33,092 nt of DNA from positions 1 to 33,092 of the forward strand of contig JABUST010000120.1 of assembly GCA_021442595.1 (NCBI GenBank). The letters are read 5' to 3'. A program made the translations under genes and the position numbers. Shown one piece after another: positions 4,744 to 30,684 of the stretch (position 1 is the first letter of the stretch; each line of letters begins with the position of its first letter). The stretch comes from Lachnospiraceae bacterium (GTDB taxonomy: Bacteria; Bacillota; Clostridia; Lachnospirales; Bianqueaceae). The notes beneath the pieces are model-generated. The model searched no databases, was not told the origin of the DNA, and saw only the letters and a program-made list of their open reading frames with translations.

Positions 4744-5463
4744 TCATCCCAGTTTCTTTAATGCTTCTACTTCTTTGTCGGAAAGCACCCGATACTCGCC
4801 TTCCTTTACATTGCCCAGCTTCAGGGGGCCCTCCTGGATCCTCCGGAGTCTGAGCACCGGATATCCTACTGCTTCTGCCATCCGGCGGACCTGATGATTC
4901 CGGCCCTCGTGGATGGTGATCTCAATGGTGGAATTGCCGCCTTTGATGCCCAGCAATTTCACCTTGGCGGGGCTGGTGACTACCCCCTCTTCCAGGGTCA
5001 CGCCCTCTTCCAGACGGCGGATGGCTTCCAGCTTGATCTCGCCTCTTACCAGAGCCCGGTAGACCTTATCGATCTGGTGGGCCGGATGGGTGAGCTTGTA
5101 AGCCAGCTCTCCGTCATTGGTGAGAAGCAGCAGTCCGGTGGTCTGATAGTCCAGCCGTCCCACAGGGTAGAGGCGCACACCATTCATCCGCACCAGCTGA
5201 GTCACATCCGGACGGCCGAATTGATCCCGGGCGGTGGTCACAAAGCCGGCGGGCTTGTTCAAAAGCACGGTGGTGGCAGGCTGGGTGTTTTTCAGCACCT
5301 TTCCTGCGTATTCCACGATGTCCTTCCCGGGATCCACCTTGAATCCCATCTCCGTCACCGTGGCACCGTTCACCTTGACCCGTCCTTCTTTGATGATCTC
5401 TTCACAGCGGCGTCTTGAACCCACGCCGCACTCTGCCATATATTTCTGTAATCTTTCTTCCAT
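4744..5463 (-). CDS. rluB: RsuA/RluB-family 23S rRNA pseudouridine synthase
   Basis: S4 domain MEERLQKYMAECGVGSRRRCEEIIKEGRVKVNG and catalytic motif LYPVGRLDYQTTGLLLLTNDGELAYKLTHP; EGRNHQVRRM. Confidence 0.85.
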   Translation of the reverse strand: MEERLQKYMAECGVGSRRRCEEIIKEGRVKVNGATVTEMGFKVDPGKDIVEYAGKVLKNTQPATTVLLNKPAGFVTTARDQFGRPDVTQLVRMNGVRLYPVGRLDYQTTGLLLLTNDGELAYKLTHPAHQIDKVYRALVRGEIKLEAIRRLEEGVTLEEGVVTSPAKVKLLGIKGGNSTIEITIHEGRNHQVRRMAEAVGYPVLRLRRIQEGPLKLGNVKEGEYRVLSDKEVEALKKLG

Positions 5464-6098
5464 CAGTCTCGGGCCTCCCCCGGTACTTTCTCTTCGGGGC
5501 TTTTCGTTTCGGAGGACGTTTTCTCCGAAGAATCTTCCGGCATCCGGGGGAGCTCCAGATTATCCAGAGTCTCTTGGGAAGGCTCCGGCAGATGGGGCAT
5601 TTCCCTTACCGAGCTGAGTTTGAAGGCCTTTAGAAACGCATCGCTGGTCTTCAGCAGCAGAGGTCTTCCCGGAGCTTTCAGGCGTCCGGCCTCCTCCACC
5701 AGTCCCATCTCCTGCAGACGGGTAACTACCGCATCGGAGGATACGCCCCTGATGTCGTTGATTTCCTGTCTGGTCACAGGCTGCCGGTAGGCTATGATGG
5801 CCAGTGTCTCCAGCTGGGTATCCGTCAGCCGGATCTGGGCCTGCTGCCGGTAAAGAAGCTCAATGTTGGGATAATACAGGGGGTTGGTGGTCATCTGGAA
5901 TCTGTCCTCCAGGCGGATCACCTGCATGCCCTTATCCTGCATTTTATATTCCTGAGCCAGATCCAGCACGATGCTCTCCGCCTCCTGCTCGCTGACTCCC
6001 AGGACCTTGGCCAGATCCTTCCGGGACACCGGCTCCCCTGCGGCAAACAACAGGGCCTCAGCGATATTCCTGTTCCTGGCCGGGCAACGTTTCTCCAT
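5463..6098 (-). CDS. scpB: segregation and condensation protein B
   Basis: NIAEALLFAAGEPVSRKDLAKVLG...LTDTQLETLAIIAYRQPVTRQEINDIRGVSSDAVVTRLQEMGLVEEAGR. Start MEKRCPARN with GAGGAAA upstream; overlaps the scpA 3' end. Confidence 0.93.
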   Translation of the reverse strand: MEKRCPARNRNIAEALLFAAGEPVSRKDLAKVLGVSEQEAESIVLDLAQEYKMQDKGMQVIRLEDRFQMTTNPLYYPNIELLYRQQAQIRLTDTQLETLAIIAYRQPVTRQEINDIRGVSSDAVVTRLQEMGLVEEAGRLKAPGRPLLLKTSDAFLKAFKLSSVREMPHLPEPSQETLDNLELPRMPEDSSEKTSSETKSPEEKVPGEARD

Positions 6099-6852
6099 AG
6101 GCTTTTTCCTCTTCTGTCTTAATGGTAGCTCTGATATCTCCGAACATATGCTCCTGGTAGAGGGAGACCTCATTCATGCGGGACAGCTCCAGCATGGCCA
6201 TGAAATAGGTGACCTCCTCGTCTCTGGAGCGGGCCCCTTTGCGCAGTTCGTAGAAGCTTACGGCTTCCACCATTGCCAGGCTCTGCTGCAGTTCCCGGAT
6301 CTTGTCGGACACATGGTATTTCTCTCTGGAAACGGAGCGGAAATTCTTGCGGACTTCATCGATGCTCTCCCGCTTGCTGACCATCAACCGCAGGTAGATG
6401 GTATACAGCTCCTCCAGATTCTGATCTTCCAGCAGTTCCTCAGGAGAAGGCAGCGGCCTTTTCCCCCGGATGGTCTCCGGTTTTCGGGTGAGGATACTCT
6501 CCTGCTCCCGGCGCATCATAGGTCTCAGGCGGAGTGCAGCGTCCTTATATTGCTTGTAGAGCAGAAGGCGGCGGATCAGCTCCGCTTCCTCATCCTCCTG
6601 CTCTTCCTCCTCCTGCTGGGCGGCAGGGAGCAGTTTCTTTGCCTTCATGTGGATCAGCGTTGCAGCCATTACGATGAACTCGCTGGCCACCTCCATATCC
6701 ATATCATCCCACTGCTTCAGGATCGCCAGATACTGTCCGGTGATTTCCAGGATCGGGATGTCGTAGATGTCCACCTTGTTCTTTTCTATGAGATGCAGCA
6801 GCAGATCCAGGGGGCCTTCAAAAGAAGGCAGACTGAACCTCATACTATCCAT
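6058..6852 (-). CDS. scpA: segregation and condensation protein A
   Basis: FSLPSFEGPLDLLLHLIEKNKVDIYDIPILEITGQYLAIL...EVASEFIVMAATLIHMKAKKLLP. Confidence 0.94.
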   Translation of the reverse strand: MDSMRFSLPSFEGPLDLLLHLIEKNKVDIYDIPILEITGQYLAILKQWDDMDMEVASEFIVMAATLIHMKAKKLLPAAQQEEEEQEDEEAELIRRLLLYKQYKDAALRLRPMMRREQESILTRKPETIRGKRPLPSPEELLEDQNLEELYTIYLRLMVSKRESIDEVRKNFRSVSREKYHVSDKIRELQQSLAMVEAVSFYELRKGARSRDEEVTYFMAMLELSRMNEVSLYQEHMFGDIRATIKTEEEKAYGETLPGQEQEYR

Positions 6853-6868: not shown

Positions 6869-7717
6869 TTACTTGTCTAAAGGATAAATGCTTCCGATGT
6901 ACAGAATGCCCTTGTCCAGATCCTCCCGGTACAGAGGGTCGCCCGGCTTCAGGGAGTTGTAGTCTACTCCGTCGCTGCCGGCTTTGGCCGTGGAGTGGAT
7001 GTACATCTGCCGCTCTCCTCCCAGATACATGGCCACATGGCCGGGAAAGAACAGCAGATCACCCGGTTTCATGTCTTTCCGCTCAATTTTATGCATGCAG
7101 AACTCCGGCTCCAGGGAGGCATCCCGGTGGATTACCACACCGCAGAGCAGATAGGCCATGGAACACAGGCCGCTGCAGTCGATGCCGAAGGGACTCTTGC
7201 CGCCCCAGCGGTAGTGAGTTCCCTCATACATTTTGACCATCTCCGTCACCCGGACCCGGAAGGTCTCTTCATCCATGTCAGGTCCCTCCCGGTTCAGCTC
7301 CACGCAGGGCACCAGGTAGGAGGTTTTGGTATAGCCTTTTCTGCCATCCGCCAGCCGGACGCAGGTCCATCCTTCCTTCTCTTCTCCCTCTGCCAGGGCC
7401 ACCACGGAGCCCATAGGCATACTTTTATAAACAGGAGAAGCCACTTCCGGTCTCTCCATCACATCCATGTTGCGCTTCATGACCCGCATCCGGCGATCCT
7501 CCGGAGCCCAGGCCCCCTCCCGGAGACCACTGCCAAGGACCCAGCCCTTATATCCGTACTCCATCCTTATGTAGACGTAGTCCCCTTGCTCCTCCAGGAT
7601 ACTGCAGCTCATACCGTAAAGGCCCTCGTCGGTCACCACCTGACCCGGCTCCGGTTTTCCGTACAGGGAAAGAATCCCCTCATTGATCAATGCCTTTCTT
7701 TCAGCCTTACAGTCCAT
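6869..7717 (-). CDS. SH3-domain NlpC/P60 family peptidase (cell wall hydrolase-like)
   Basis: YEGTHYRWGGKSPFGIDCSGLCSMAYLLCGV, KPGDLLFFPGHVAMYLGGERQMYIHS (Cys/His catalytic motifs); SH3-like segments upstream. GAGGAGGAAACC directly before ATG at 7717; no signal peptide seen from that start. Confidence 0.85.
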   Translation of the reverse strand: MDCKAERKALINEGILSLYGKPEPGQVVTDEGLYGMSCSILEEQGDYVYIRMEYGYKGWVLGSGLREGAWAPEDRRMRVMKRNMDVMERPEVASPVYKSMPMGSVVALAEGEEKEGWTCVRLADGRKGYTKTSYLVPCVELNREGPDMDEETFRVRVTEMVKMYEGTHYRWGGKSPFGIDCSGLCSMAYLLCGVVIHRDASLEPEFCMHKIERKDMKPGDLLFFPGHVAMYLGGERQMYIHSTAKAGSDGVDYNSLKPGDPLYREDLDKGILYIGSIYPLDK

Positions 7718-7832
7718 GGTTTCCTCCTCTTCGCTCTCTCTGTTTCCTGCAGCAGAATGGTCCTCATCCTGCATTTTAGTCTTAAGAGCAATGGAGGACA
7801 TTATAGCACATTGCAGGATTTCCGTCAAATGA

Positions 7833-7878
7833 AAAAGCGGTCTCAGTGCCGATAAATAAAAGCACCGAGACCGCTTTT
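7833..7878 (-). terminator. intrinsic terminator downstream of the pullulanase-HAD gene
   Basis: aaaagcggtctcagtgc (7833-7849) / gcaccgagaccgctttt (7862-7878), 17-bp arms with one mismatch, 12-nt loop, A/T run at both sides. Confidence 0.75.
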
Positions 7879-8010
7879 CAGTCTTAAAACGATCCTTTGA
7901 TCCGTGACCGGAGAAAGCATCCTGCAACACCCATTATGAACAAAAGCCCCTGTCCGGGATGCAGGTTTTCTCCCGTGAAGTCCGACCTTACCCGAAGACT
8001 CATGCCTCCG

Positions 8011-10716
8011 TCAGACGAATTTCAGGAGGTCGGCAGGTGTGTGGATGATATATGCAGCCCCGAACTCCTCCAGCTCCTGCCGGGAGCCGTAGCCATAAAG
8101 CACGGCAATGGTTTCCAGACCATTCTGCCGGGCACCGGTAATGTCATACTTTCTGTCTCCCACCATGACCACACGGGACAGATCTTTGATGCCTGCCAAC
8201 TCCAGGGCGTAAGCTACCACCTGCTCCTTTTTATTGCGGCTGGTGTCCGCGGATGCTCCCGCCAGAAAATCAAAATAGATATCCACTCCAAGATATTTAA
8301 GGATGGCAACAGCCTGGGGCTCCGGCTTGGAGGTGGCCAATATGAGCCTTTTCCCGGCAGCCTTCAGAGAAGCCAGCACCGGGCGGATCCCTTCGTACAG
8401 GAAACACTCGTACATACCCTTCACCGGATAATATTCCCGGAACAGGTCCACCGCTTTCCGGGCAGTCTCCGGATCCATACTGCAGAACTCCCGGAAAGAC
8501 TCGATGAGAGGAGGTCCGATGAACTTGTTCAGCTGAGATCGCTCCGGCACTTCCAGTCCCATCTTTGTCAGGGCATAGGCTACCGCATTGGTGACTCCCT
8601 CTCCGGAGTCGATGATGGTGCCGTCCAGATCGAAGAGGAATGTATCGTACTCTCCTCTGAAGATCTCCTCCGAAACCGCTATGAGGGCACTGCGCATATA
8701 TACGTGAGCCTCTTTGCCCCGGAAGCTCCACAGAGCATCTGCGGAAGCATGGGCTTCGTCTGCCAGCACCTGCCACTCCATATCCTCCGGGATCAGCTCC
8801 GGCAGCTCCACCGTCTTTTCTTCCTCTGTTCCATTCAGCAGCACCAGAATCCAGCGGGGATCTCCCGGCTTGATTCCGGGCAGCAGATAGCCTACCTGAT
8901 TGTCTGTTTCCAGGAAGATCACGGCACCCCGGGCAGCTCTCCCGGTCTCATCCGTAAAGGCCTTATAGCGCTTCCGCATGGCGATCAATCCCTTGTAATA
9001 CTCAAACAGCTCCCGGAATCTGGCCTTACGGCTCCAGAAGATGTCATTGATCTCCGGTCCCAGGTTATAGCTGTTATCCTCTCCCTGCTTACTGCGTCCG
9101 AATTCTTCTCCGGCCTGCATGAACACCATGCCCTGAGCCGTTAGATAGCAGGCTGCCGCCAGCTTGTTCACTGCCACCCGCAGCATCTCCGGCGCATCGA
9201 AGCCGGACCCGTCGGATTCCACCGTAAAGGTAAGCTTATCCCACAGGGTAAAATTATCATGAGCGCTGACATAGGCCACCCGTCTGTCCGGCAGCATCTT
9301 TTCATTCTTATCCAGAAATGCCCGGAAGACACTCCGCAGCTCCGGCTCTGTGCCTGCCACACCGGTGACGAAGCCTCCCTCCTCCTTCTCGAAGCAGGAG
9401 CCCTTCACGCTGTCCCTGAGCCGATCGTCAAACACGCCGATGTGCTCTTTCATATCCAGCAGATGTCCGCCGTCAGCCGGCAGTACCCCTTTAGGTATAG
9501 CCGGAGGCAGGGCTGACCACGGCTCACCGTACAGCAGGTAATTCTTTCCGGGAAGGCTGTCCAGCATGTCCCGGATCTCATTCATGGTCTCCACATCGTG
9601 GATCCCCATAAGATCAAAACGGAATCCGTCCACATGATATTCCCGGGCCCAATACTCCAGGGAATCCAGCATATAGCGGCGCATCATGGGCCTCTCGGAG
9701 GCTGTCTCGTTGCCGCAGCCGCTGGCATTGCCGAAATCTCCGTCCGGCATGGTCCGGTGGTAGTAGCAGGGCATGATGCGCTCAAACCAGGAATCCTTAG
9801 TGTGATAGGTATGGTTGTACACCACATCCAGCACCACGCCGATGCCCTGTCGGTGCAGCCTCAAAACAGCTTCCTTCAGTTCCCGGATCCGCACATCTCC
9901 ATGGAAAGGATCCTGGGAAAAAGAGCCCTCCGGCACATTATAATTCAGCGGGTCATAGCCCCAGTTGTAGCTGCTCTCCCTGACAGCCTCATTCACCGTG
10001 GCATTCTCCGCCACCGGCAGCAGATGCACGTGGGTAATACCCAGCTCTCTCAGATGGTCTGTGCCCGTGCTGATGATGACGTCGCCATTGCCTTCGGGGA
10101 GCAGAGCTCTGGTTCCGGGCACCCCCAGGGCGGCATACTTGCCCTTGGGTTCCATGCCGGAATCCGCAGCATGGGAGAAATCCTTCACGTGAACTTCCCA
10201 GACCACTGCTTCCGTCTGGTGCCCCCGGTAGCTGTAGGAGTCCTCCTCCCAGCCCTCCGGGTCTGTGGCTCTGAGATCCACCACCATGGAACGAAGGCCG
10301 TTCACCCCTGCGGCCCTGGCGTAGGGATCCGCCGTCTCCACCTTCTCCCCGCAGAAATCCAGAGTGAAGGTATAATATACGTTTTTCAGGTCCCCCTTCA
10401 GAACCAGGCTCCATACTCCCGCCTCGGAGGGAGTATTCATGGGAAAATGCCCTATGCTTTGCGCGCCTTCTTCTCCGTCCGAACCTGTGGCAAACAGATT
10501 GACCCACACGGCGTCAGCTGCAGGGGACCAAAGTTTGAAGCAGGTCCTTTCCTTTGTATATACGACTCCCAGATCATGTCCTTCGTAGGTATACTTCTCC
10601 GCAAAGGCGGGTGACCGGTAGGTCTTCACCAGACCGGGGATCTCCTGATACAGGACCCCATCCAGCCTTATGCCGTTTTTGAGCCAAAGTCGTTTTTTAT
10701 TCATCGTTCTCTTCAT
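8011..10716 (-). CDS. type I pullulanase fused to a C-terminal HAD-superfamily phosphatase
   Basis: One continuous 901-aa ORF. Pullulanase/GH13: YNWGYDPLNYNVPEGSF, VVLDVVYNHTY, VDGFRFDLMGIHD, LLYGEPWSALPP, YVSAHDNFTLWDKL. HAD segment (~aa 688-901, ~8014-8655): FLFDLDGTIIDS, LILATSKP, RNKKEQVV, MVGDRKYDITGA. Start may be Met5 at 10704. Confidence 0.92.
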   Translation of the reverse strand: MKRTMNKKRLWLKNGIRLDGVLYQEIPGLVKTYRSPAFAEKYTYEGHDLGVVYTKERTCFKLWSPAADAVWVNLFATGSDGEEGAQSIGHFPMNTPSEAGVWSLVLKGDLKNVYYTFTLDFCGEKVETADPYARAAGVNGLRSMVVDLRATDPEGWEEDSYSYRGHQTEAVVWEVHVKDFSHAADSGMEPKGKYAALGVPGTRALLPEGNGDVIISTGTDHLRELGITHVHLLPVAENATVNEAVRESSYNWGYDPLNYNVPEGSFSQDPFHGDVRIRELKEAVLRLHRQGIGVVLDVVYNHTYHTKDSWFERIMPCYYHRTMPDGDFGNASGCGNETASERPMMRRYMLDSLEYWAREYHVDGFRFDLMGIHDVETMNEIRDMLDSLPGKNYLLYGEPWSALPPAIPKGVLPADGGHLLDMKEHIGVFDDRLRDSVKGSCFEKEEGGFVTGVAGTEPELRSVFRAFLDKNEKMLPDRRVAYVSAHDNFTLWDKLTFTVESDGSGFDAPEMLRVAVNKLAAACYLTAQGMVFMQAGEEFGRSKQGEDNSYNLGPEINDIFWSRKARFRELFEYYKGLIAMRKRYKAFTDETGRAARGAVIFLETDNQVGYLLPGIKPGDPRWILVLLNGTEEEKTVELPELIPEDMEWQVLADEAHASADALWSFRGKEAHVYMRSALIAVSEEIFRGEYDTFLFDLDGTIIDSGEGVTNAVAYALTKMGLEVPERSQLNKFIGPPLIESFREFCSMDPETARKAVDLFREYYPVKGMYECFLYEGIRPVLASLKAAGKRLILATSKPEPQAVAILKYLGVDIYFDFLAGASADTSRNKKEQVVAYALELAGIKDLSRVVMVGDRKYDITGARQNGLETIAVLYGYGSRQELEEFGAAYIIHTPADLLKFV

Positions 10717-11956
10717 TTCCGTCCTGTTTTTCCAGGGTCATAAGAAGTTTCCACAGGGTGGGGTGTATACCCGCTGCCCTCATGGCTTCCTCCACCCTGG
10801 CCTTAGCTGCCGGGTCCTTCTGTCCCTGCTTCACGCAGCGCAGCAGAAGATTCTTGGGAGAATGCTGCATATCCACAAATTCCAGCACATCCACCCTGTA
10901 TCCCTGCCATTTCAGCATGTCTGCCCGCAGGGCATCGGTCATCAAAGCTGCCATGCGCTCCTTAATGAGGCCGTATTCCGTATAGGTCCCCAGGGTATGG
11001 CGCCCCATCTGGTAGTTGAGTTCATGCTGGCAGCAGGGGACCGAGAAGATTCTGGGGGTGCCCCAGGAAACAGCATTATACAGGGCAAAATCCGTGGCTG
11101 TGTCGCAGGCATGGAGAGAGATGACCATGTCGATCTTTCCCTCCGGCACAAAGCCGTTGATGTCCCCTACCTGAAAGCTGAGGTCTTCATATCCGTAGCG
11201 CCTGGCAATGCGGTTGCAGTCCCGGATGACCTCTTCCTTCAGGTCAAGACCGATGATCCTGGCCCGGATGCCCCGGACCCGGCAGAGATAATCATAAAGC
11301 ACAAAGGTCAGGTAGGACTTGCCGCAGCCGAAATCAACGATCTGCAGCTCTTTCACATCCTGTCCGATGCTGTCATCAATGACTTCCACAAAGCGGTTAA
11401 TCTGCTTGAATTTATCATACCGTTTGGCTGCCACCTTGCCCTCTTTGGTGACCACTCCCAGATCTACCAGAGGGGCCGGAGCATCTGCTGCCTCCAACAG
11501 ATACTTTTTCTCTCTGTTCTGGGCGAGGACATGACCGTTGCTTTGACCGTTTCCGGAGCAGCCGGTAAAGGGCGGGCCCCCGGCAGACTCCTGTCCGTCC
11601 TGTCCTTCCGAATCATCCGGTCCGCAGACAGTGAGTACCGGCTTCTTTCTGTACAGCACTTTACCCTTCCGGGAGATTTTAACAAAGGCCGTATACCGGG
11701 AGGACCAGCTGTCCAGCTGCATATACTCCTCCAGCAGAGTCTGCAGGGCCCCGGGAAGCTCCTCCGGCAGGAGATTTTCGTGAAATGCCTGTTTATCCGT
11801 AAATCGCTCCACCTGCCACATCTCCCGGGAACGGATCAGTACCGGGCGGATATTCACCTTTCGGTAGGAGTTGCCGTTTTTATCCCTTGCACAGGACAGG
11901 ATCATCCGATCCGGGTGCTGCATGCACAGGTCGCTGACCACTTCATGGATCTCCAT
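10697..11956 (-). CDS. class I SAM-dependent methyltransferase
   Basis: Motif I VDFGCGKSYLTFVLYDYL, ARIIGLDLKEEVI, MVISLHACDTATDFALYNAV, FSVPCCQHELN. Confidence 0.82.
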   Translation of the reverse strand: MEIHEVVSDLCMQHPDRMILSCARDKNGNSYRKVNIRPVLIRSREMWQVERFTDKQAFHENLLPEELPGALQTLLEEYMQLDSWSSRYTAFVKISRKGKVLYRKKPVLTVCGPDDSEGQDGQESAGGPPFTGCSGNGQSNGHVLAQNREKKYLLEAADAPAPLVDLGVVTKEGKVAAKRYDKFKQINRFVEVIDDSIGQDVKELQIVDFGCGKSYLTFVLYDYLCRVRGIRARIIGLDLKEEVIRDCNRIARRYGYEDLSFQVGDINGFVPEGKIDMVISLHACDTATDFALYNAVSWGTPRIFSVPCCQHELNYQMGRHTLGTYTEYGLIKERMAALMTDALRADMLKWQGYRVDVLEFVDMQHSPKNLLLRCVKQGQKDPAAKARVEEAMRAAGIHPTLWKLLMTLEKQDGNEENDE

Positions 11957-12362: not shown

Positions 12363-15300
12363 TTATTTCAGAGAAATACAGTAGATTTCACTGCCTCGGG
12401 TTCCCACCACCAGGCGGTCCTCAAAGACAGCCGGGGATGCTTCCACGAGCCAGCCTACGCTGGTGGAGTCCATTCTCTCTCCGGTGAGACCATCCATCAG
12501 GAAGCCGTCACCCTCCGAGTCAAAGACGATCATGTAGCCCTTTCCGTCGTCGGTGTATACACCTACAGGAGAGCTCCAGGTATAATCTGCCATCTCCCAG
12601 CGCCAGATCTCTTCACCGGTCTCCGTGTCCAGAGCCACCATCAGACCGGAGTAGTAATCGTAGGGATTCTCCTCACGGTAGATACGGGCAATGGTGTAGA
12701 AGATCATGCCTTCAAGGTTCGTGCCCGGACGGCCGATGGCAGGGGAGGACTGTACACCGCCGGAGATATCCGTGATGGTCAGACACTTATAGTCCACCTT
12801 CCAGATGATCTCACCGGTAATGGCGTCCAGCTTATAGATGGGTACAGTACCGGAATCACTGTAGTCCTTGGTCCAGTGAAGGGAAGGAGCAGTATAGAGA
12901 TATCCCCGTCCCGTCTTCTCATCGAATTCAAAGATAGGCGTGGAATTGGAGTCATCATTTGTATCCTGCAGCCAGATGACCTCCATGGTGTTCAGATCCA
13001 CGCAGAAGAAGAATCCTGCGTTATCGGAATAATATCCGTAGTGATCAAAGGCCGTCATGCTGCACTCCACACCGTAGTAACGCTCATAGGACAGAGGGCA
13101 GGTGTAGCGCATTCTCACAGGCTCATCCGGTTCACAGGTGAACTCCCCGGTGGCAGCATTGAAGGAAGTATTCAGCTTCACGGTATACAGAATACCGTTC
13201 TCACCGGGCCAGATCAGGGTGTCCGTCTCCGCATTCACAATGGGGGAGGAGTCGAAGGCGGGCCAGTCACGATGGGCAAAGGAATCGTACTGTCCGAAGG
13301 AAGTAACGATGGAATTGTCCACCAGATTGATGATGTATGCTCTGGGCGCCTCGCTGTAATAATTGTAAACACCGGAGCCCACATACATCAGGGGAAGGCC
13401 TCGGGGATCCAGCGCGCCGGCTCCCTTAAAGGTCATGCCCACCCAGAGGGAATCTCTGGTTTTGGACCCGTCCTCCAGATCGAAGAAGTAGATATATCCA
13501 TCCATGGTGGCGTAGATCACCTCCACCAGGCCGTCCTTCTCCCGCTTCTCCTCATACATGGAGGTCATGGCCTTGCGCACATCCTCATCCCAGCGGACGA
13601 TCAGAGGCTGGCCTGTCCAGCCGATGCCGGACCACATATCACCGGAGCTGTCATCCAGTCCGCCATTCATGCGGGTCCACTCGGCGCCGCCGAATTCGAT
13701 CTTTGTCATGCCGGTGGTGCCGAAGGCAGCATCGGTTCTGTAGTTGTTGCCCCGGAAGGTAAGGACACCATCCACCCGGGCATAGTCTGCGCCGTCGCCG
13801 AAGGAGATGCTCTCCTCCCGGGTATAGGTCTCCACAAGCTCGCCGTCCTTGCTGATCTCCCACTCCATATCAAAGTTGGCAGGATCCGTGGATGCCACAT
13901 AGTGAGGCTCCTCCACGAAGGTGGTAAACACAGGCTCCGGTTCAGGTTCCGGTTCGGGTTCAGGCACCACTTCGGAGATCTCCTCCATCGGTTCGGAAAC
14001 CACAGGAGCGGCCTCCACCACTCTGGAAGTCTCATAGGAGGACTCTGCGCTGCTCTGCTCGGGAGCTGCGCTCTTCTTCATAATGCCAGAACCAAGGAAC
14101 AGGTAAATACCTGCGCCAATGCAGACCAGGAACAGGAAAATGGAGACGATCCACAGAGCGATGCGTCCGCCTCTGGAGACCTCGGCCTCTTCCTCTTCTT
14201 CGTCGTCATAATCTTCATCATCCAGAAGATCCTCAGCCTCGGCTGAAGGGAATCTTCCGTTTTGTGCTGCCCGCTGACGCTGGAGTTCGTCGATATCGAT
14301 CTCACCGGCGAGAGCGGCTGCGAACTGGGCCTTGTCTGCCATGCGGCGGGCACGGGCTTCGTCATCCCCTTCGGAATACGCTTCCTCTGCGCCATAGTAA
14401 GTGTCGGGTGCGGCGGGCATGACAGCCGTCATATCCTCTGCTTCTTCTTCGGCGATTCCCAGCTCCTCATCGGTCATATTGAAATCGATGCCAAAGGTCG
14501 GATTCTGATACACAGGAGCTGCCGGGGCAGGTGCCTGGTATACAGGAGCTGCAGGTGCAGGTGCCTGGTATACAGGAGCTGCAGGTGCTTGAAGTCCCGG
14601 TGCCGCCTGAGCAGGAGCCGTGTACATGGGTGCCGCAGGTGCCGTATACACCGGTCCGGCGACTGCCTGCTCCATAGGCGCAGGTTCCAAGGTCTCAGGA
14701 GCAGGAGCATAGCCGGCAAAGGAAGTCTCCGGCTGAGGTGCCCCGTACTGAGGCATAGAAACTGCCGGTGCAGGCGTTTCTGTTACCGGATTTTGAGGCC
14801 CAGCTGCTTCAGGTGCAGATCCGGGAGCTGCCATCCGGTTTTCAAAGTCATTGGCTTTGACTTCGTATTTATCCCGGAAGGGCATAAATACAGATTCCTG
14901 GGTGGGCTTTTCCTCTTCCGTGCGGAATCTGGGAGAGAAGTTGATATCCTCTTCCACGGGAATGGTCATAACAGGCGCGATCTCTGCAGCAGCTGCCACA
15001 GCCGGCTTGACCTCCTCCTTCACAGGAACAATGGGCACAGCCTGCTTTTCGGCTTTTTCCGCTGCCTCCATGCGGGAGGCCATGGAACGAAAGAAGGCAG
15101 AAGACTCCGGATCTGCGGGGGCCACAGGCTCCACAGCGGGCATTGCAGGTTCTACAGCAGAAACTGCAGGCTCTATGGCCGGCATTGAAGGTTCCACGGC
15201 GGGAGCTGTTTCCGGTACCAGGGTGGGAGCCACCGGAACAGACGTTGCCGGCATGGTCCGGTTTTCATAGTCAGCAGATGCTGTCGGCGCATAGACCGGC

Positions 15301-15746
15301 TCGGGAGCCACGTAGGGGGCAGTCACTGCCGGCGCAGATACACCGGGCGCTTGACCATATCCGTTCATGGCGCCGCTCATCTGCGCTTCTGCCATCTGGA
15401 GACGCTTCTCCTCCTGCTCGGCTGAGATGAGGGTCTCCAGGTTGGTCCTTCTGGATTCCACCCGCTTGATCCACTGGGACTGGCTCATCTGCAGCACACT
15501 CTCCGGTGTCTGCACGGCGGCAGGTCCCCGGTTCATTGCTTCAAAGGCATTCACCTGGCCGTTTCTGGCCTTGCGAAGGGACTCTTCCCGCAGTTTTCTG
15601 CGCTCTTCAGCCCTTGCCCGGGCTTTTGCCCGGCGCTGGCGCTCAGCCAGGATCAGGGCAGTGATGCCGCCGCTGATCAATAGAACCACCACCAAAATGA
15701 TGGCATACTTGGTTCCTCCGGCCAACAACAGGGTAAGACTTCTCAT
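12363..15746 (-). CDS. PQQ-like (BamB-type) beta-propeller protein with two TM segments and a long low-complexity region
   Basis: N-terminal TM (YAIILVVVLLISGGITALIL), Ala/Pro/Glu-rich region, acidic run EDLLDDEDYDDEEEEEAE, second TM (IALWIVSIFLFLVCIGAGIYLFL), PEPEPEPEPEP linker, then repeated propeller-type motifs (ATMDGYIYFFDLEDGSK, KLDAITGEIIWKVD, ALDTETGEEIWRWEMADYTWSSPVGVYTDDGKGYMIVFDSEGDGFLMDGLTGE). ATG at 15746 has GAGGTG upstream. Confidence 0.82.
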   Translation of the reverse strand: MRSLTLLLAGGTKYAIILVVVLLISGGITALILAERQRRAKARARAEERRKLREESLRKARNGQVNAFEAMNRGPAAVQTPESVLQMSQSQWIKRVESRRTNLETLISAEQEEKRLQMAEAQMSGAMNGYGQAPGVSAPAVTAPYVAPEPVYAPTASADYENRTMPATSVPVAPTLVPETAPAVEPSMPAIEPAVSAVEPAMPAVEPVAPADPESSAFFRSMASRMEAAEKAEKQAVPIVPVKEEVKPAVAAAAEIAPVMTIPVEEDINFSPRFRTEEEKPTQESVFMPFRDKYEVKANDFENRMAAPGSAPEAAGPQNPVTETPAPAVSMPQYGAPQPETSFAGYAPAPETLEPAPMEQAVAGPVYTAPAAPMYTAPAQAAPGLQAPAAPVYQAPAPAAPVYQAPAPAAPVYQNPTFGIDFNMTDEELGIAEEEAEDMTAVMPAAPDTYYGAEEAYSEGDDEARARRMADKAQFAAALAGEIDIDELQRQRAAQNGRFPSAEAEDLLDDEDYDDEEEEEAEVSRGGRIALWIVSIFLFLVCIGAGIYLFLGSGIMKKSAAPEQSSAESSYETSRVVEAAPVVSEPMEEISEVVPEPEPEPEPEPVFTTFVEEPHYVASTDPANFDMEWEISKDGELVETYTREESISFGDGADYARVDGVLTFRGNNYRTDAAFGTTGMTKIEFGGAEWTRMNGGLDDSSGDMWSGIGWTGQPLIVRWDEDVRKAMTSMYEEKREKDGLVEVIYATMDGYIYFFDLEDGSKTRDSLWVGMTFKGAGALDPRGLPLMYVGSGVYNYYSEAPRAYIINLVDNSIVTSFGQYDSFAHRDWPAFDSSPIVNAETDTLIWPGENGILYTVKLNTSFNAATGEFTCEPDEPVRMRYTCPLSYERYYGVECSMTAFDHYGYYSDNAGFFFCVDLNTMEVIWLQDTNDDSNSTPIFEFDEKTGRGYLYTAPSLHWTKDYSDSGTVPIYKLDAITGEIIWKVDYKCLTITDISGGVQSSPAIGRPGTNLEGMIFYTIARIYREENPYDYYSGLMVALDTETGEEIWRWEMADYTWSSPVGVYTDDGKGYMIVFDSEGDGFLMDGLTGERMDSTSVGWLVEASPAVFEDRLVVGTRGSEIYCISLK
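14508..14590 (-). repeat. 30-bp in-frame tandem repeat within the PQQ-propeller gene
   Basis: tacaggagctgcaggtgcaggtgcctggta-type unit with 30-bp period (tacaggagct ends at 14520, 14550, 14580), encoding APAAPVYQAP. Confidence 0.85.
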
Positions 15747-16087
15747 ATTAGTCACCTCTTTTGATCCATATATCGAAGGCTGCGATTCTTCTCATCAAAA
15801 ACAAACCATGTCTCCTCTACAGACAGATTCCGTCCGCTGCGAGGTTTTTCAGCCATAGTAAACGCAACCATTATAGCAGATATCACGGGCTTTTGTATAT
15901 ATTTTTCGTTATAACGAAGAGTCCGTTTTCCTGCCTGCTTCTTCCCTCTGCCATGAATTTCGTCCCTGCCTGTTTCTTTCCTCTGCCCCCCCTCACCGCT
16001 GCTGCATTCTTTCCATTTATCCTCAAAAATGCTATAATACACCACTACGGCAACGAAACTGCCTGAATTCACACCTGAGGTGACCTT

Positions 16088-20046: not shown

Positions 20047-21057
20047 TCAGAACTTGCCTGCGCGAGCGGCTTCTTCCACAGCCACGGCCACAGCAACGGT
20101 AGCGCCCACCATGGGGTTGTTGCCCATACCGATCAGACCCATCATCTCAACATGAGCGGGGACGGAGGAGGAACCTGCAAACTGAGCATCAGAATGCATA
20201 CGTCCCATGGTATCGGTCATGCCGTAGGAAGCGGGACCTGCTGCCATGTTATCAGGATGCAGGGTACGTCCGGTACCGCCGCCGGAAGCCACAGAGAAGT
20301 ACTTCTTTCCCTGCTCGATGCATTCCTTCTTGTAGGTACCTGCCACAGGATGCTGGAAGCGGGTGGGGTTGGTGGAGTTACCGGTGATGGAAACACCGAC
20401 ATTCTCCTTATGCATAATGGCAACGCCTTCCTGAACATCGTCAGCGCCGTAGCACTTAACGGTAGCGCGAAGACCGGTGGAATAGGGCTTCTCGTAGATG
20501 GTATTCAGGGTAGCAGTCTTGTAATCGTACTGGGTCTCCACATAGGTGAAGCCGTTGATACGGGAAATGATCTGAGCAGCGTCCTTTCCGAGACCGTTCA
20601 GGATGACCCGCAGAGGCTTGGTGCGAACCTTGTTAGCCTTCTCGGCAATACCGATAGCGCCTTCAGCAGCAGCGAAGGACTCGTGACCTGCCAGGAAGCA
20701 GAAGCACTCGGTCTCCTCTTCCAGAAGCATCTTACCCAGATTTCCGTGGCCCAGGCCTACCTTGCGGTGGTCGGCAACAGAACCGGGGATGCAGAAGGCC
20801 TGGAGACCCTCACCGATAGCGGCGGCAGCATCAGCAGCCCGGCGGCAGCCCTTCTTGATAGCAATGGCAGCGCCCACAGTATATGCCCAGCAAGCATTCT
20901 CAAAGCAGATGGGCTGGATCTTCTTGACCTGTTCGTAAACATTCAGGCCGGCGTCCTTGGTGATCTTCTCAGCTTCTTCGATGGAAGCGATGCCGTACTT
21001 GTTCAAAGCGGCATTGATCTGATCGATTCTTCTCTCATAGGATTCAAATAAAGCCAT
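20047..21057 (-). CDS. GGGtGRT family protein (function unknown)
   Basis: Contains the family-naming motif SVASGGGTGRTLHPDNMAAGP; AAAGGAG before ATG. Confidence 0.88.
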   Translation of the reverse strand: MALFESYERRIDQINAALNKYGIASIEEAEKITKDAGLNVYEQVKKIQPICFENACWAYTVGAAIAIKKGCRRAADAAAAIGEGLQAFCIPGSVADHRKVGLGHGNLGKMLLEEETECFCFLAGHESFAAAEGAIGIAEKANKVRTKPLRVILNGLGKDAAQIISRINGFTYVETQYDYKTATLNTIYEKPYSTGLRATVKCYGADDVQEGVAIMHKENVGVSITGNSTNPTRFQHPVAGTYKKECIEQGKKYFSVASGGGTGRTLHPDNMAAGPASYGMTDTMGRMHSDAQFAGSSSVPAHVEMMGLIGMGNNPMVGATVAVAVAVEEAARAGKF

Positions 21058-22152: not shown

Positions 22153-22725
22153 ATGAACAACACTGTAGAGATCCGCTGGCACGGCCGCGGCGGCCAGGGC
22201 GCCAAGACCGCAGCCCTGCTGCTGGCAGACGTTGCCTTTGAAACCGGTAAGTTTGTACAGGGCTTCCCCGAGTACGGTCCGGAGCGCATGGGCGCCCCCA
22301 TCACCGCCTACAACCGCATCAGCGACAAGGAGATCCGCGTACATTCCAACATTTATGAACCCGACTATGTGGTCGTGGTGGACGAGTCCCTCCTGGAGGC
22401 TGTGGACGTAACCGCCGGTCTGCGCAAAGAGGGCGCCGTGGTGGTCAACACCGCTAAGTCCGTAGAAGAGATCCGTCCCCTCCTCAGAGGCTATGAGGGC
22501 GATGTCTATGTGATCGACGCCAGAACCATCTCCATCGAAGCTCTGGGCCGCTATTTCCCCAACTCTCCCATGCTGGCTGCCATCGTAAAGGTCAGCGGCG
22601 TCATGGACCGGGAAACCTTCATGACCGAGATGAGAGGCTCCTATGCCCATAAGTTTGCTTCCAAGCCCGAAGTCATCGAGGGCAACATGAAGGCTCTGGA
22701 AATGGCCTTCGATGCCGTAAACTAA
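22153..22725 (+). CDS. 2-oxoacid:ferredoxin oxidoreductase, gamma subunit
   Basis: MNNTVEIRWHGRGGQGAKTAALLLADVAFETGKFVQGFPEYGPERMGAPITAYNRIS, typical Por/Vor gamma. Confidence 0.92.
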   Translation: MNNTVEIRWHGRGGQGAKTAALLLADVAFETGKFVQGFPEYGPERMGAPITAYNRISDKEIRVHSNIYEPDYVVVVDESLLEAVDVTAGLRKEGAVVVNTAKSVEEIRPLLRGYEGDVYVIDARTISIEALGRYFPNSPMLAAIVKVSGVMDRETFMTEMRGSYAHKFASKPEVIEGNMKALEMAFDAVN

Positions 22726-22739
22726 GGAGGATAAGCAGC

Positions 22740-23042
22740 ATGACTGACTTAAATAAAGTAGGTCCTTCCTGTACCTGGAAAGACCTGACGGAAGGTATGA
22801 TGATCTATGAAGGCGGCACCAGCCGGCAGTTCAAGACCGGCGAATGGGCTTCCATTAAGCCCGAGTACATTGAGAGCAAGTGCATCCACTGCCTGCTCTG
22901 CACCCCCGTATGCCCCGACAGCGCCATCCCCGTAAAGGACATGAAGAGATGCGCCTTTGATTATGACCACTGCAAGGGCTGCGGCATCTGTGTCAAGGCC
23001 TGCCGCTTCGGCGCTATCGTTATGGAAGGAGTGAACAAATAA
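22740..23042 (+). CDS. 2-oxoacid:ferredoxin oxidoreductase, delta subunit (2x[4Fe-4S] ferredoxin)
   Basis: CIHCLLCTPVCPD and CKGCGICVKACRF, two CxxCxxCxxxC clusters. Confidence 0.92.
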   Translation: MTDLNKVGPSCTWKDLTEGMMIYEGGTSRQFKTGEWASIKPEYIESKCIHCLLCTPVCPDSAIPVKDMKRCAFDYDHCKGCGICVKACRFGAIVMEGVNK

Positions 23043-24220
23043 TGGCAAGAAGAGACCGTCTTTCCGGAAATGAAGCTGTGGCTGAAGCCCTGCGTCAGAT
23101 CGATCCGGACGTAATGCCCGCTTTCCCCATCACCCCTTCCACCGAGATTCCCCAGTATTTTTCCAAGTTCTGTGCCAATGGACAGGTACATACTGAGTTT
23201 ATTCCCGTAGAGTCCGAGCACTCCGCCATGTCTGCCGCCATCGGCGCCGAATCCGCCGGTGCCCGCACCGTTTCCGCCACCTCCTCCGCCGGCATGGCAT
23301 ACATGTGGGAGGAGCTGTATCTGGCCAGCGCCAACCGTCTTCCTCTGGTTCTGGCTCTGGTGAACCGTGCCCTTTCCGGTCCCATTAACATCAACTGCGA
23401 CCATTCCGATTCCATGGGCGCCAGAGATGCCGGCTGGATCCAGATCTACGCCGAGACCAACCAGGAAGCCTATGACAACATGGTCATGGCTTACCGCATC
23501 GCCGAGGCTGAGGGTGTACACCTGCCTGTCATGGTGTGCCAGGACGGCTTCATCACCTCTCATGCCGTGCAGAACATCCTGCTGATGGAGGACAAAGAAG
23601 TCAAGGAATTCGTGGGCGAGTACAATCCCGAGCATTCCCTTCTGGATCCCAATGGCGTTATGTCCGTGGGCCCCTACTCCATTACCAACTATTACATGGA
23701 AGCCCGCCGGGCTCAGGCCGAGGCTCTGCATAATGCCAAGGCTGTGGTCAAGGCCGTGGGAGAAGAATTCGGACGCCTCACCGGCCGCAGCTACGGCTGG
23801 TTCGAAGAGTACTGCATGGAAGATGCAGAGTACGCCATCGTCCTCATCGGCTCTGCCGCCGGCACCGCCAAGGATGCCGTGGACAAGCTGCGCGCAGAGG
23901 GCAAGAAGGTGGGTCTCATAAAGATCCGCATGTTCCGTCCCTTCCCCGGCGCTGAAATTGCAGAAGCTCTGAAGAATGTGAAGGCTGTTGGTCTCATGGA
24001 CCGCACCGAGAGCTTCAACGACTGCGCCGGCCCCATCGGTGCCGAGGTATCCTCCGCTCTGTTCCGGGCCCGCCATATGTGCGAGACCATCAACTATGTC
24101 TACGGTCTGGGCGGCCGCGATGTCCGGGTGGAAGATATCGAAAAGGTCTTTGAGGATCTCTTCGATGCCGCCGAAAACGGAACCGCCGACTACTACCGTT
24201 ATCTGGGTGTCAGAGAATAA
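23042..24220 (+). CDS. 2-oxoacid:ferredoxin oxidoreductase, alpha subunit
   Basis: FPITPSTEIPQYFSKF...VESEHSAMSAAIGAESAGARTVSATSSAGMAYMWEELYLASANRLPLVL, ADRxTEx-type LMDRTESF. Confidence 0.93.
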   Translation: MARRDRLSGNEAVAEALRQIDPDVMPAFPITPSTEIPQYFSKFCANGQVHTEFIPVESEHSAMSAAIGAESAGARTVSATSSAGMAYMWEELYLASANRLPLVLALVNRALSGPININCDHSDSMGARDAGWIQIYAETNQEAYDNMVMAYRIAEAEGVHLPVMVCQDGFITSHAVQNILLMEDKEVKEFVGEYNPEHSLLDPNGVMSVGPYSITNYYMEARRAQAEALHNAKAVVKAVGEEFGRLTGRSYGWFEEYCMEDAEYAIVLIGSAAGTAKDAVDKLRAEGKKVGLIKIRMFRPFPGAEIAEALKNVKAVGLMDRTESFNDCAGPIGAEVSSALFRARHMCETINYVYGLGGRDVRVEDIEKVFEDLFDAAENGTADYYRYLGVRE

Positions 24221-24235
24221 GAGGGGTGAAACACT

Positions 24236-25171
24236 ATGGCTTACAACTTTAAAGAAACAATGAATCGCCCCGAGCGTCTTGCTCCCGGCCACAGAATGTG
24301 CGCAGGCTGCGGCGGAACCATCGCCGTGCGCAATGTCCTCCGGGCTCTCCACGAGGGGGACCGGGCCGTCATCGGAAATGCCACCGGATGTCTGGAGGTC
24401 TCCACCTTCACCTATCCCTATGTGGCTTACGAAGACAGCTATATCCATAACGCCTTTGAGAACGCAGGAGCCACCATGGCCGGCGTGGAGGGCGCCTACA
24501 ATGCCCTGAAGCGTGCAGGGAAGCTTCCTGCCGACCAGAATACCAAGTTCATCACCTTCGGCGGTGACGGCGGCACCTACGACATCGGCTTCCAGTCTCT
24601 GTCCGGCGCCATGGAAAGAAATCACGACATGGTCTATGTGTGCTACGACAACGGTGCCTACATGAACACCGGTATCCAGCGCTCTTCCGCAACCCCCATG
24701 TTTGCCGATACCACCACTACACCTGCCGGAACCCAGTCCAACGGCAAGCCCCAGAACCGCAAGGATCTGGCCACCATCATTGCCGCCCACGACGTTCCCT
24801 ATGTGGCCCAAACCACTTTCCAGCCCAACTTCAAGGATCTGCACACCAAGGCCGAGAAGGCCATCTACACTCCCGGCGCCGCTTTCCTGAACATCATGGC
24901 TCCCTGCCCCCGGGGCTGGAGATATGAGACCCAGGACATCATGGAGATCTGCCGTCTGGGCGTGGAGACCTGTTACTGGCCCCTCTTTGAGGTGGTGGAA
25001 GGCAAGTGGATCCTGAACTATCAGCCTAAGAACAAGCTTCCCATCGAGGATTGGCTGGTGAAGCAGGGCCGCTTCAAGCATCTGTTCAAGAAGGGCAACG
25101 AGTACCTCATCGAGGCCTTCCAGAAGGAAGTGGACCGCCGCTGGGAAGACCTTCTGAAGCGCTGCAATTGA
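24236..25171 (+). CDS. 2-oxoacid:ferredoxin oxidoreductase, beta subunit (TPP-binding)
   Basis: HRMCAGCGGTIAVRNV, IGNATGCLEV, GDGGTYDIGFQSLSGAMERNHDMVYVCYDNGAYMNTGIQRSSATP. Confidence 0.93.
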   Translation: MAYNFKETMNRPERLAPGHRMCAGCGGTIAVRNVLRALHEGDRAVIGNATGCLEVSTFTYPYVAYEDSYIHNAFENAGATMAGVEGAYNALKRAGKLPADQNTKFITFGGDGGTYDIGFQSLSGAMERNHDMVYVCYDNGAYMNTGIQRSSATPMFADTTTTPAGTQSNGKPQNRKDLATIIAAHDVPYVAQTTFQPNFKDLHTKAEKAIYTPGAAFLNIMAPCPRGWRYETQDIMEICRLGVETCYWPLFEVVEGKWILNYQPKNKLPIEDWLVKQGRFKHLFKKGNEYLIEAFQKEVDRRWEDLLKRCN

Positions 25172-25203
25172 TGGACCATATCCCATAAACAAACGAGGAA
25201 CCT

Positions 25204-26718
25204 ATGTATCGCATCATGACTTCCGACGAGGCAGTCAGCCTGATCAAAGACGGCGACTGTATCTGCGTCAATTCCTTTGTGGGAATCGAGAACCCGGTGG
25301 AGCTTCACGAAGCCATCCATCGCCGTTTTCTGGCCAACGGCTCTCCCAACAATCTGACCATCGTATCCAGCGCCGGCTTCGGCATCTTCGATGAGAACAG
25401 AGCTGCCGAGGGCTACATCCGGGACGGCGCCGTAAGCCGCCTGATCTGCGGCCACTTCGGCTCCATGCCCAGCACCAAGCGTCTGGTCCTGGAGGATCGC
25501 TTCGAGGCCTACAACCTTCCCCTGGGCTGCATTTCCCATGCCATCCGGGCTCAGGCCGGCGGACTGCCCGGCGCCCTCTCCAAGGTGGGTCTGGACATCT
25601 TTGTAGACCCCGATCGGGAAGGCCCCGGCATCAACAACATCTCCAAGGACACCAGCTTCATCCGTCATATCGATGTAGACGGAGAGGACTTCCTTTTCTA
25701 CAGTCTGCCAAAGTTCAACATTGCCCTCATCAAGGGTACGGCAGCGGACTACAAAGGAAACATTTCCTTCGATGATATGTACATGTCCGGCGATGCCCTG
25801 TCCATATGTCAGGCAGTAAAGGCCAACAAGGGAAAGGTCATCGTGCAGGTGGATTATGTTCAGAGCACCCCCACCCGTCCCCGCAATGCCATCATTCCCG
25901 GCTGCTTCGTGGACGCCATCGTGGTATCTGCTCCCACCAAGCTTCCCACCGCCTACAAGGCCCTCACCGGCGACTTTGACATTCCCTATGACGAATGGGA
26001 CGACTGGAGCAAGCAGCTGGATGCCCTCACCAATCCCCGTCAGCAAAAGACAGACGCCGCCGCCAAGATCATCGGACGTCGGGCAGAGCGTGCTTTAAAG
26101 GCAGACAACATCGTCAACATCGGCATCGGACTGCCGGAGATGGTGTCCCGCTATGCCAGAAAATCCGGCATGATGGACCAGATCACCCTCACAGTGGAAT
26201 CCGGCGGCATCGGCGGTTTCCCTGCCTCCGGCACTGTCTTCGGCGCCATGATCGGAGCCACCTCCGTGAATGATATGTCCAACCAGTTCGATCTGTATGA
26301 CAACGGCGGTCTGGACATCTGCTTCATGGGTGCCTATGAGGTGGACAAATTCGGCAATGTGAATGCGCACCGCGGTCCCGGAGCCTATGCCGGCATCGGC
26401 GGCTTTGCCAACATCACCGCCAAGACTCCCACGGTGGTTTTCTGTCTGACCTTCAATACCAAGGGACTGGACGTATCCTATAAGAACGGACGGGTCACCA
26501 TCAACCAGGAGGGGTCCATTCCCAAGTTCGTGGAAAATGTGAAGAGCGTCAGCTTTTCCGCCAAGCGGGCCCTGGAGAACGGGCAGAAGGTCCTGTATGT
26601 CACCGAGCGCGGTGTGTTCCGTCTGACCCCCAACGGTCTGAAGCTCACAGAGGTCTATCCCGGTGTGGATACGGAGAAGGATATTCTCAGCCGTCTCCCC
26701 TTCCCTGTGGAGATCTGA
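25204..26718 (+). CDS. acyl-CoA:acetate/3-ketoacid CoA-transferase family protein (propionate CoA-transferase-like)
   Basis: IMTSDEAVSLIKDGDCICVNSFVGIENPVELHEAI, NIGIGLPEMVS, probable catalytic Glu in TVESGGIGGFPASGTVFGA; full-length alpha-beta single-chain type. Confidence 0.85.
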   Translation: MYRIMTSDEAVSLIKDGDCICVNSFVGIENPVELHEAIHRRFLANGSPNNLTIVSSAGFGIFDENRAAEGYIRDGAVSRLICGHFGSMPSTKRLVLEDRFEAYNLPLGCISHAIRAQAGGLPGALSKVGLDIFVDPDREGPGINNISKDTSFIRHIDVDGEDFLFYSLPKFNIALIKGTAADYKGNISFDDMYMSGDALSICQAVKANKGKVIVQVDYVQSTPTRPRNAIIPGCFVDAIVVSAPTKLPTAYKALTGDFDIPYDEWDDWSKQLDALTNPRQQKTDAAAKIIGRRAERALKADNIVNIGIGLPEMVSRYARKSGMMDQITLTVESGGIGGFPASGTVFGAMIGATSVNDMSNQFDLYDNGGLDICFMGAYEVDKFGNVNAHRGPGAYAGIGGFANITAKTPTVVFCLTFNTKGLDVSYKNGRVTINQEGSIPKFVENVKSVSFSAKRALENGQKVLYVTERGVFRLTPNGLKLTEVYPGVDTEKDILSRLPFPVEI

Positions 26719-30034: not shown

Positions 30035-30142
30035 CATATCTCATAGTACAGCTTGCGCGAACCCCACCGGCATATCTCATGGTACAGCTTACGCAAACCC
30101 CACCGGCATATCTCATGGTACAGCTTGCGCAAACCCCACTGC
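30035..30142. repeat. 36-bp tandem repeat, 3 abutting units, upstream of luxS
   Basis: catatctcatagtacagcttgcgcgaaccccaccgg / catatctcatggtacagcttacgcaaaccccaccgg / catatctcatggtacagcttgcgcaaaccccactgc. Confidence 0.93.
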
Positions 30143-30168
30143 CATTTCACTTAGGAGGAACATACATC

Positions 30169-30684
30169 ATGGATCTCATCCCCAGCTTTCAGGTAGACCA
30201 CACCCGCCTTGTCCCCGGCATCTACGAGTCCCGGGTGGACACTCTGGGCAGCGAGTACGCCACCACCTTCGACATCCGCATGAAGACCCCGAACCTGGAG
30301 CCTGTCATCCATGCCAACGCCATGCACACCATCGAGCATGTGGTGGCCACCTTCCTCAGGAATGATCCCGAATGGAAGGACCGCATCATCTACTGGGGCC
30401 CCATGGGCTGCCTCACCGGCTGCTATCTCATCGTCAAGGGCCGTCCCGCTCCTCAGGAGCTGCTGCCCCTGATGCTCCGTGCCTTCGAATTCTGCGCCGC
30501 TTATGATGACGTAGTCCCCGGCACTGCCCCCATCAATTGCGGAAACCACCTTTTCCACGACCTCCCCATGGCCCGCTATGAGGCCGCCCGCTATGTGGAT
30601 ATCCTGAAGACCTCCCCCTGCTTTGACTATCCCACCGTAGACCGCATTACCACGGAAAAAGGCCAAACCTTCTACGACTCCTGA
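30169..30684 (+). CDS. luxS: S-ribosylhomocysteine lyase
   Basis: HTIEH zinc motif, GPMGCLTGCYLI, CGNHLFHDLPMARYEA. ATG at 30169 preceded by TTAGGAGGAACATACATC. Confidence 0.93.
   Translation: MDLIPSFQVDHTRLVPGIYESRVDTLGSEYATTFDIRMKTPNLEPVIHANAMHTIEHVVATFLRNDPEWKDRIIYWGPMGCLTGCYLIVKGRPAPQELLPLMLRAFEFCAAYDDVVPGTAPINCGNHLFHDLPMARYEAARYVDILKTSPCFDYPTVDRITTEKGQTFYDS

Follow-up and report, generated by a model that had tools for sequence, protein, structure and literature searches.

We asked whether an open reading frame that joins a type I pullulanase to a HAD phosphatase is a genuine gene fusion, where its two halves came from, and whether their union means that debranching of alpha-glucans is coupled to a dephosphorylation step. 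The frame lies in a stretch of 33,092 nucleotides, referred to here as the window, which was analyzed as a whole.

Domains, motifs and distribution of the fused protein

Read on the minus strand from 10716 to 8011, the frame continues for 901 residues without interruption, with Met5 as an alternative start. Its parts are the following:

8011..10716 (-): fused pullulanase-HAD gene, 901 aa; an open frame that passes the cut-offs of TIGR02104 and HAD_2
8662..10716 (-): type I pullulanase part, residues 1-685; CBM48, GH13 catalytic domain and C-terminal beta domain
8650..8661 (-): linker FRGE, about 4 residues (686-689); the point where relatives' pullulanases terminate, with the start of stand-alone HADs right behind it
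8011..8649 (-): HAD phosphatase half (residues 690-901 and the stop codon); all four motifs

The preliminary description of this DNA had proposed that a complete pullulanase and a complete HAD domain share one frame, only a few residues apart, and our comparisons agree on both counts. Residues 38-658 scored 615.6 bits against the NCBIfam model for type I pullulanases, TIGR02104 (cut-off, 504.5), residues 694-872 scored 100.8 bits against Pfam HAD_2 (cut-off, 23.8), all catalytic motifs were found, and the short linker was recovered by alignment with relatives. In the pullulanase half we located YNWGYDP at 250, DVVYNHT at 297, GFRFDLMG at 364 (D368), YGEPW at 396 (E398), and VSAHDN at 483 (D487). 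The GH13 catalytic triad of D368, E398, and D487 is in place along with YNWGYDP, and in an alignment of pullulanases D368 and E398 are invariant and D487 nearly so. This half is 44-55% identical to pullulanases elsewhere in the family, and its nearest relatives in the PDB are the pullulanase-type enzymes 9qf8, 7lsa, and 2e8y. The type I pullulanases (TIGR02104, GH13) represented by 9qf8 (Ruminococcus bromii Amy10) and 2e8y (AmyX) have the same order of CBM48, GH13, and C-terminal beta domain, and share the catalytic residues and YNWGYDP with the fused protein. Known type I pullulanases end at the beta domain or bear other modules, however, and in our analysis none but that of the window carries a HAD domain. 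A structure prediction, informative for the pullulanase half alone, placed the last pullulanase strand at 676-682; the HAD half, modeled from an alignment without HAD relatives, had a pLDDT below 50.

The HAD half carries motifs I to IV (DxDGT, Ser/Thr, Lys, GDxxxD) as DLDGT at 696, ATSKP at 794, NKKEQ at 828 (K830), and GDRKYD at 853. In the PDB it matched, over full length, the Gph-like HADs 3mc1 ("Predicted phosphatase, HAD family"; E, 4e-57) and 3sd7 ("Putative phosphatase"; E, 1e-55), which have the same four motifs. Both are stand-alone, putative phosphatases, whereas the HAD of the window is fused. For each named HAD equivalog among its listed NCBIfam matches, the HAD half scored below the curated cut-off; these include PpaX (96.8 bits; cut-off, 218) and the phosphoglycolate phosphatase Gph, TIGR01449 (89.1 bits; cut-off, 180), and no curated nucleotidase model was among its best 25 NCBIfam matches.

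Within the family, 1 of 19 genomes carries the fusion, that of the window itself, and we found none in the rest. We also searched with the HAD at three ranks, through 295 genomes from the order, 399 from the phylum, and 391 from the class; counted by handle, these amount to about 1,050 distinct genomes, and about 330 of them had this HAD. Among the matches listed, no other HAD belonged to an open frame of more than 658 aa. Pullulanases of about 930 aa in relatives were considered as fusion candidates and discarded, since none of the listed HAD matches fell in a frame of such length; the one in G005 starts with a lipoprotein-like signal. At 65 pullulanase loci from a collection of 84,980 species, no closely related HAD adjoined the pullulanase, and at one of them a 27% HAD match lay 4 kb away. 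A literature search for pullulanase-HAD fusions returned nothing relevant. Excerpts of a review from 2024 on the alpha-glucan enzymes of prokaryotes name sucrose- and trehalose-phosphate phosphatases as having HAD-like domains and do not mention a pullulanase-HAD fusion (PMC11046441). By these comparisons, the architecture appears to be new among the genomes searched.

The junction and its flanking genes

Alignment with relatives sets the last residue of the pullulanase part at about I685 and the first of the HAD part at Y690. The pullulanase of a sister genome, G001, ends in ...SALILASEARI followed by a stop, and the window reads ...SALIAVSEEI-FRGE-YDTFLFDLDG. Such a frame might be an artefact of assembly or base calling, in which two genes that are really adjacent seem joined because the stop between them was misread. 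The assembly is a draft of 223 contigs, probably a metagenome bin, the fusion occurs in one genome only, and a one-codon substitution near the junction (a miscalled base in the former stop) would be enough to restore the natural length of the pullulanase. The junction itself argues otherwise. Past the last conserved residues of the pullulanase (about 685), the first stops in the other two frames lie 73 and 356 nt downstream, so that shifting the frame in the linker by a small indel would still not yield two tidy genes, and an indel error there cannot explain the open frame. Moreover, at the usual start of the HAD there is no in-frame ATG, GTG, or TTG, the nearest in-frame ATGs being codons 674 and 719, and two normal genes would therefore need two independent changes.

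The genes on either side bear on the same question:

10697..11956 (-): methyltransferase gene (Methyltransf_32, by Pfam); upstream ancestral neighbor, overlapping the start of the pullulanase
6869..7930 (-): NlpC/P60 endopeptidase with SH3 domain (by Pfam); downstream ancestral neighbor, annotated start uncertain
6058-6852 (-): ScpA-like, by synteny; a fixed point of the ancestral order
5463-6173 (-): ScpB, by Pfam/TIGR00281 and synteny; a fixed point of the ancestral order

Relatives have the order methyltransferase, pullulanase, aminotransferase, (epimerase), NlpC/P60, ScpA, ScpB, pseudouridine synthase, RpiR, and HI0933-like, with the epimerase, of the mandelate-racemase type, present in several of them. 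The methyltransferase stands beside the pullulanase in relatives whose contig shows that side, and the position of the NlpC/P60 gene is conserved in most of the genus (an NlpC match at this place is lacking in G004 and genus g3); the stretches of G009, G010, G013, and G014 (L111, L106, L112, and L107) do not show this neighborhood. In the genome of the window, the fused HAD takes the place of the aminotransferase and the epimerase. Across five relatives, the orthologous aminotransferases share 66-82% identity, but the closest copy in this genome, on another contig, reaches 41-44%, and a search of this genome for the epimerase gave no match.

A contig chimera, at a contig end or elsewhere, was rejected because the ancestral gene order is kept on both outer flanks, where two false joins would be needed to produce it. 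Separate genes in close homologues had been named beforehand as a finding that would refute the fusion. Relatives do encode the pullulanase and the HAD separately, and this points to a recent, lineage-specific fusion rather than to an artefact. The join between pullulanase and HAD looks genuine from the sequence, and we regard an artefact as rather unlikely.

The same synteny shows that the pullulanase itself is vertically inherited. In the pullulanase tree the sequence of the window is sister to that of G001, from the same genus (91/92). Its branch measures 0.72 and that of G001 0.32, although the G001 sequence spans no more than 31% of the columns. Branches of neighboring genes are also longer in this genome (NlpC, 0.79 versus 0.23; RpiR, 0.28 versus 0.13), and for this reason we make no claim of faster pullulanase evolution after the fusion.

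Origin of the HAD half

In G004, FtsH and DUF1292 enclose the HAD, and a 387-aa gene and MntR come next (names assigned by eye, from sequence). The same four neighbors persist on contig C71 of the window's genome, but FtsH and DUF1292 have no HAD between them there, leaving the ancestral site empty. The fused HAD shares 58% identity with the HAD of G273, a genome of another family, and 37-46% with the copies of its own family. In the HAD tree it pairs with G273 and falls outside a clade of most family HADs (98/98); its branch is long (0.73), and the pairing with G273 is only moderately supported (96/55). An AU test rejected placing it with the HADs of G003, G004, G007, and G011, which represent the genus and family (p = 0.0002), and a second grouping gave 8e-6, on which we rejected a translocation of the family's own HAD. 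By the empty site, the tree, and the AU test, the fused HAD is a foreign copy and not the family's own. GC and GC3 of both halves match the surroundings (GC3, 0.66 and 0.69), which means that the transfer was not very recent or that the donor was similar in composition.

HAD partners and the question of metabolic coupling

The same class of HAD has been joined to other proteins in related bacteria. We found it in frame behind an O6-methylguanine-DNA methyltransferase (OGT) in two species of one genus (L121:6707-7867 in G007; L118:7005-8135 in G011) and behind a GNAT acetyltransferase (L186:3395-4585 in G270). In both OGT-HAD and GNAT-HAD the junctions are short, as in the pullulanase-HAD protein, but the partners are unrelated. 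Five further frames place the HAD N-terminal to an Rce1-like membrane domain of the CAAX protease type, in contrast to its C-terminal position in the window (L181:3002-4531, L182:2306-3820, L183:3289-4971, L184:3952-5901, and L187:1949-3457). Pfam was run on L181 and L184 only; the genomes, from several genera, are G086 and G112 and, by sequence, also G213, G233, and G291. A putative alpha/beta-hydrolase-like partner, below the Pfam cut-off, precedes the HAD in L185:3756-4970 (G168). The earlier view that HADs of this class normally stand alone therefore describes most members and fails for these fusions. Two or three tandem copies of the same HAD were also seen (G978:C33:66616-68574; G1012:C5:207292-208578).

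The preliminary description had further suggested that the fusion couples debranching to dephosphorylation of a glucan product. In such a bifunctional enzyme the HAD would take phosphate from a glucan-breakdown product or co-metabolite such as glucose-1-phosphate or phosphorylated maltodextrins; the tethering would have been selected. The fusion has left both active sites intact, and glycoside hydrolase-HAD fusions exist in carbohydrate metabolism, such as a beta-phosphoglucomutase-like HAD with GH65. Several observations stand against coupling. In relatives the HAD has FtsH, DUF1292, and MntR as neighbors rather than glucan genes, and in G273 it is flanked by what resemble, by eye, genes for a branched-chain aminotransferase and ispG. 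Among the genomes searched, one alone has the pullulanase-HAD arrangement, the HAD half scores below the cut-off of each named equivalog listed, and the variety of its partners elsewhere (DNA repair, acetyltransferase, membrane protease) argues against a specific pullulanase-phosphatase pathway. With a foreign HAD and with relatives' genes at unrelated loci, the suggestion of coupling gains no support. We judge it unlikely that tethering was selected for such a reaction, and it seems quite improbable that the protein is a new bifunctional alpha-glucan enzyme, with debranching tethered to a phosphatase acting on a product or regulator of glucan breakdown. Metabolic coupling of the two halves is a possible but weakly supported idea for which we found no positive evidence. 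The spread of one phosphatase class over different proteins also counsels caution in drawing a "Rosetta stone" inference from a single fusion.

The most economical reading is that two working enzymes were recently fused in a single lineage. A stand-alone HAD gene from outside the family would have inserted directly behind the vertically inherited gene for a cytosolic pullulanase, replacing the aminotransferase and epimerase genes formerly at that place. Loss of the pullulanase stop and of the HAD start would then have produced a single polypeptide of 901 aa with a short linker. This protein would be made whole, with both halves active, one in alpha-1,6-debranching of cytosolic glucan and the other in hydrolysis of a small phosphomonoester; the halves would act independently, and the fusion would amount to co-production rather than a channeled pathway. 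We consider this history, from the insertion of a foreign HAD to two independently acting enzymes, probable as a whole. A single fusion-bearing genome offers no evidence that selection has kept the two halves together. It is very unlikely that the frame yields two proteins, the fusion and a free HAD started at M674: this codon is in frame and 22 codons ahead of the HAD nucleophile, but by eye no good ribosome-binding sequence precedes it at normal spacing, and it falls within the conserved end of the pullulanase, in the region of the last strand. The locus offers a snapshot of a gene fusion: besides the continuous frame with its two complete domains and the old neighbors on both flanks, one can read that the aminotransferase and epimerase are gone, that the ancestral HAD site stands empty, and that the added domain has foreign affinities.

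Elsewhere in the window, a frame of 1130 aa (12363-15755, minus strand) has only a C-terminal beta-propeller-like match and is for the most part without a Pfam match. Ketoacid:ferredoxin oxidoreductase genes (POR, POR_N, and TPP enzyme) followed by a CoA-transferase gene occupy 22153-26718 on the plus strand, and LuxS lies at 30079-30684. The C-terminal part of a GGGtGRT protein (20047-21057) is 88-98% identical to short pieces in other genomes (G012:C9:2-265, G014:C11:10-267, and G010:C9:16210-16362), some of them at contig ends, above the 71-85% identity of the longer matches in the family.
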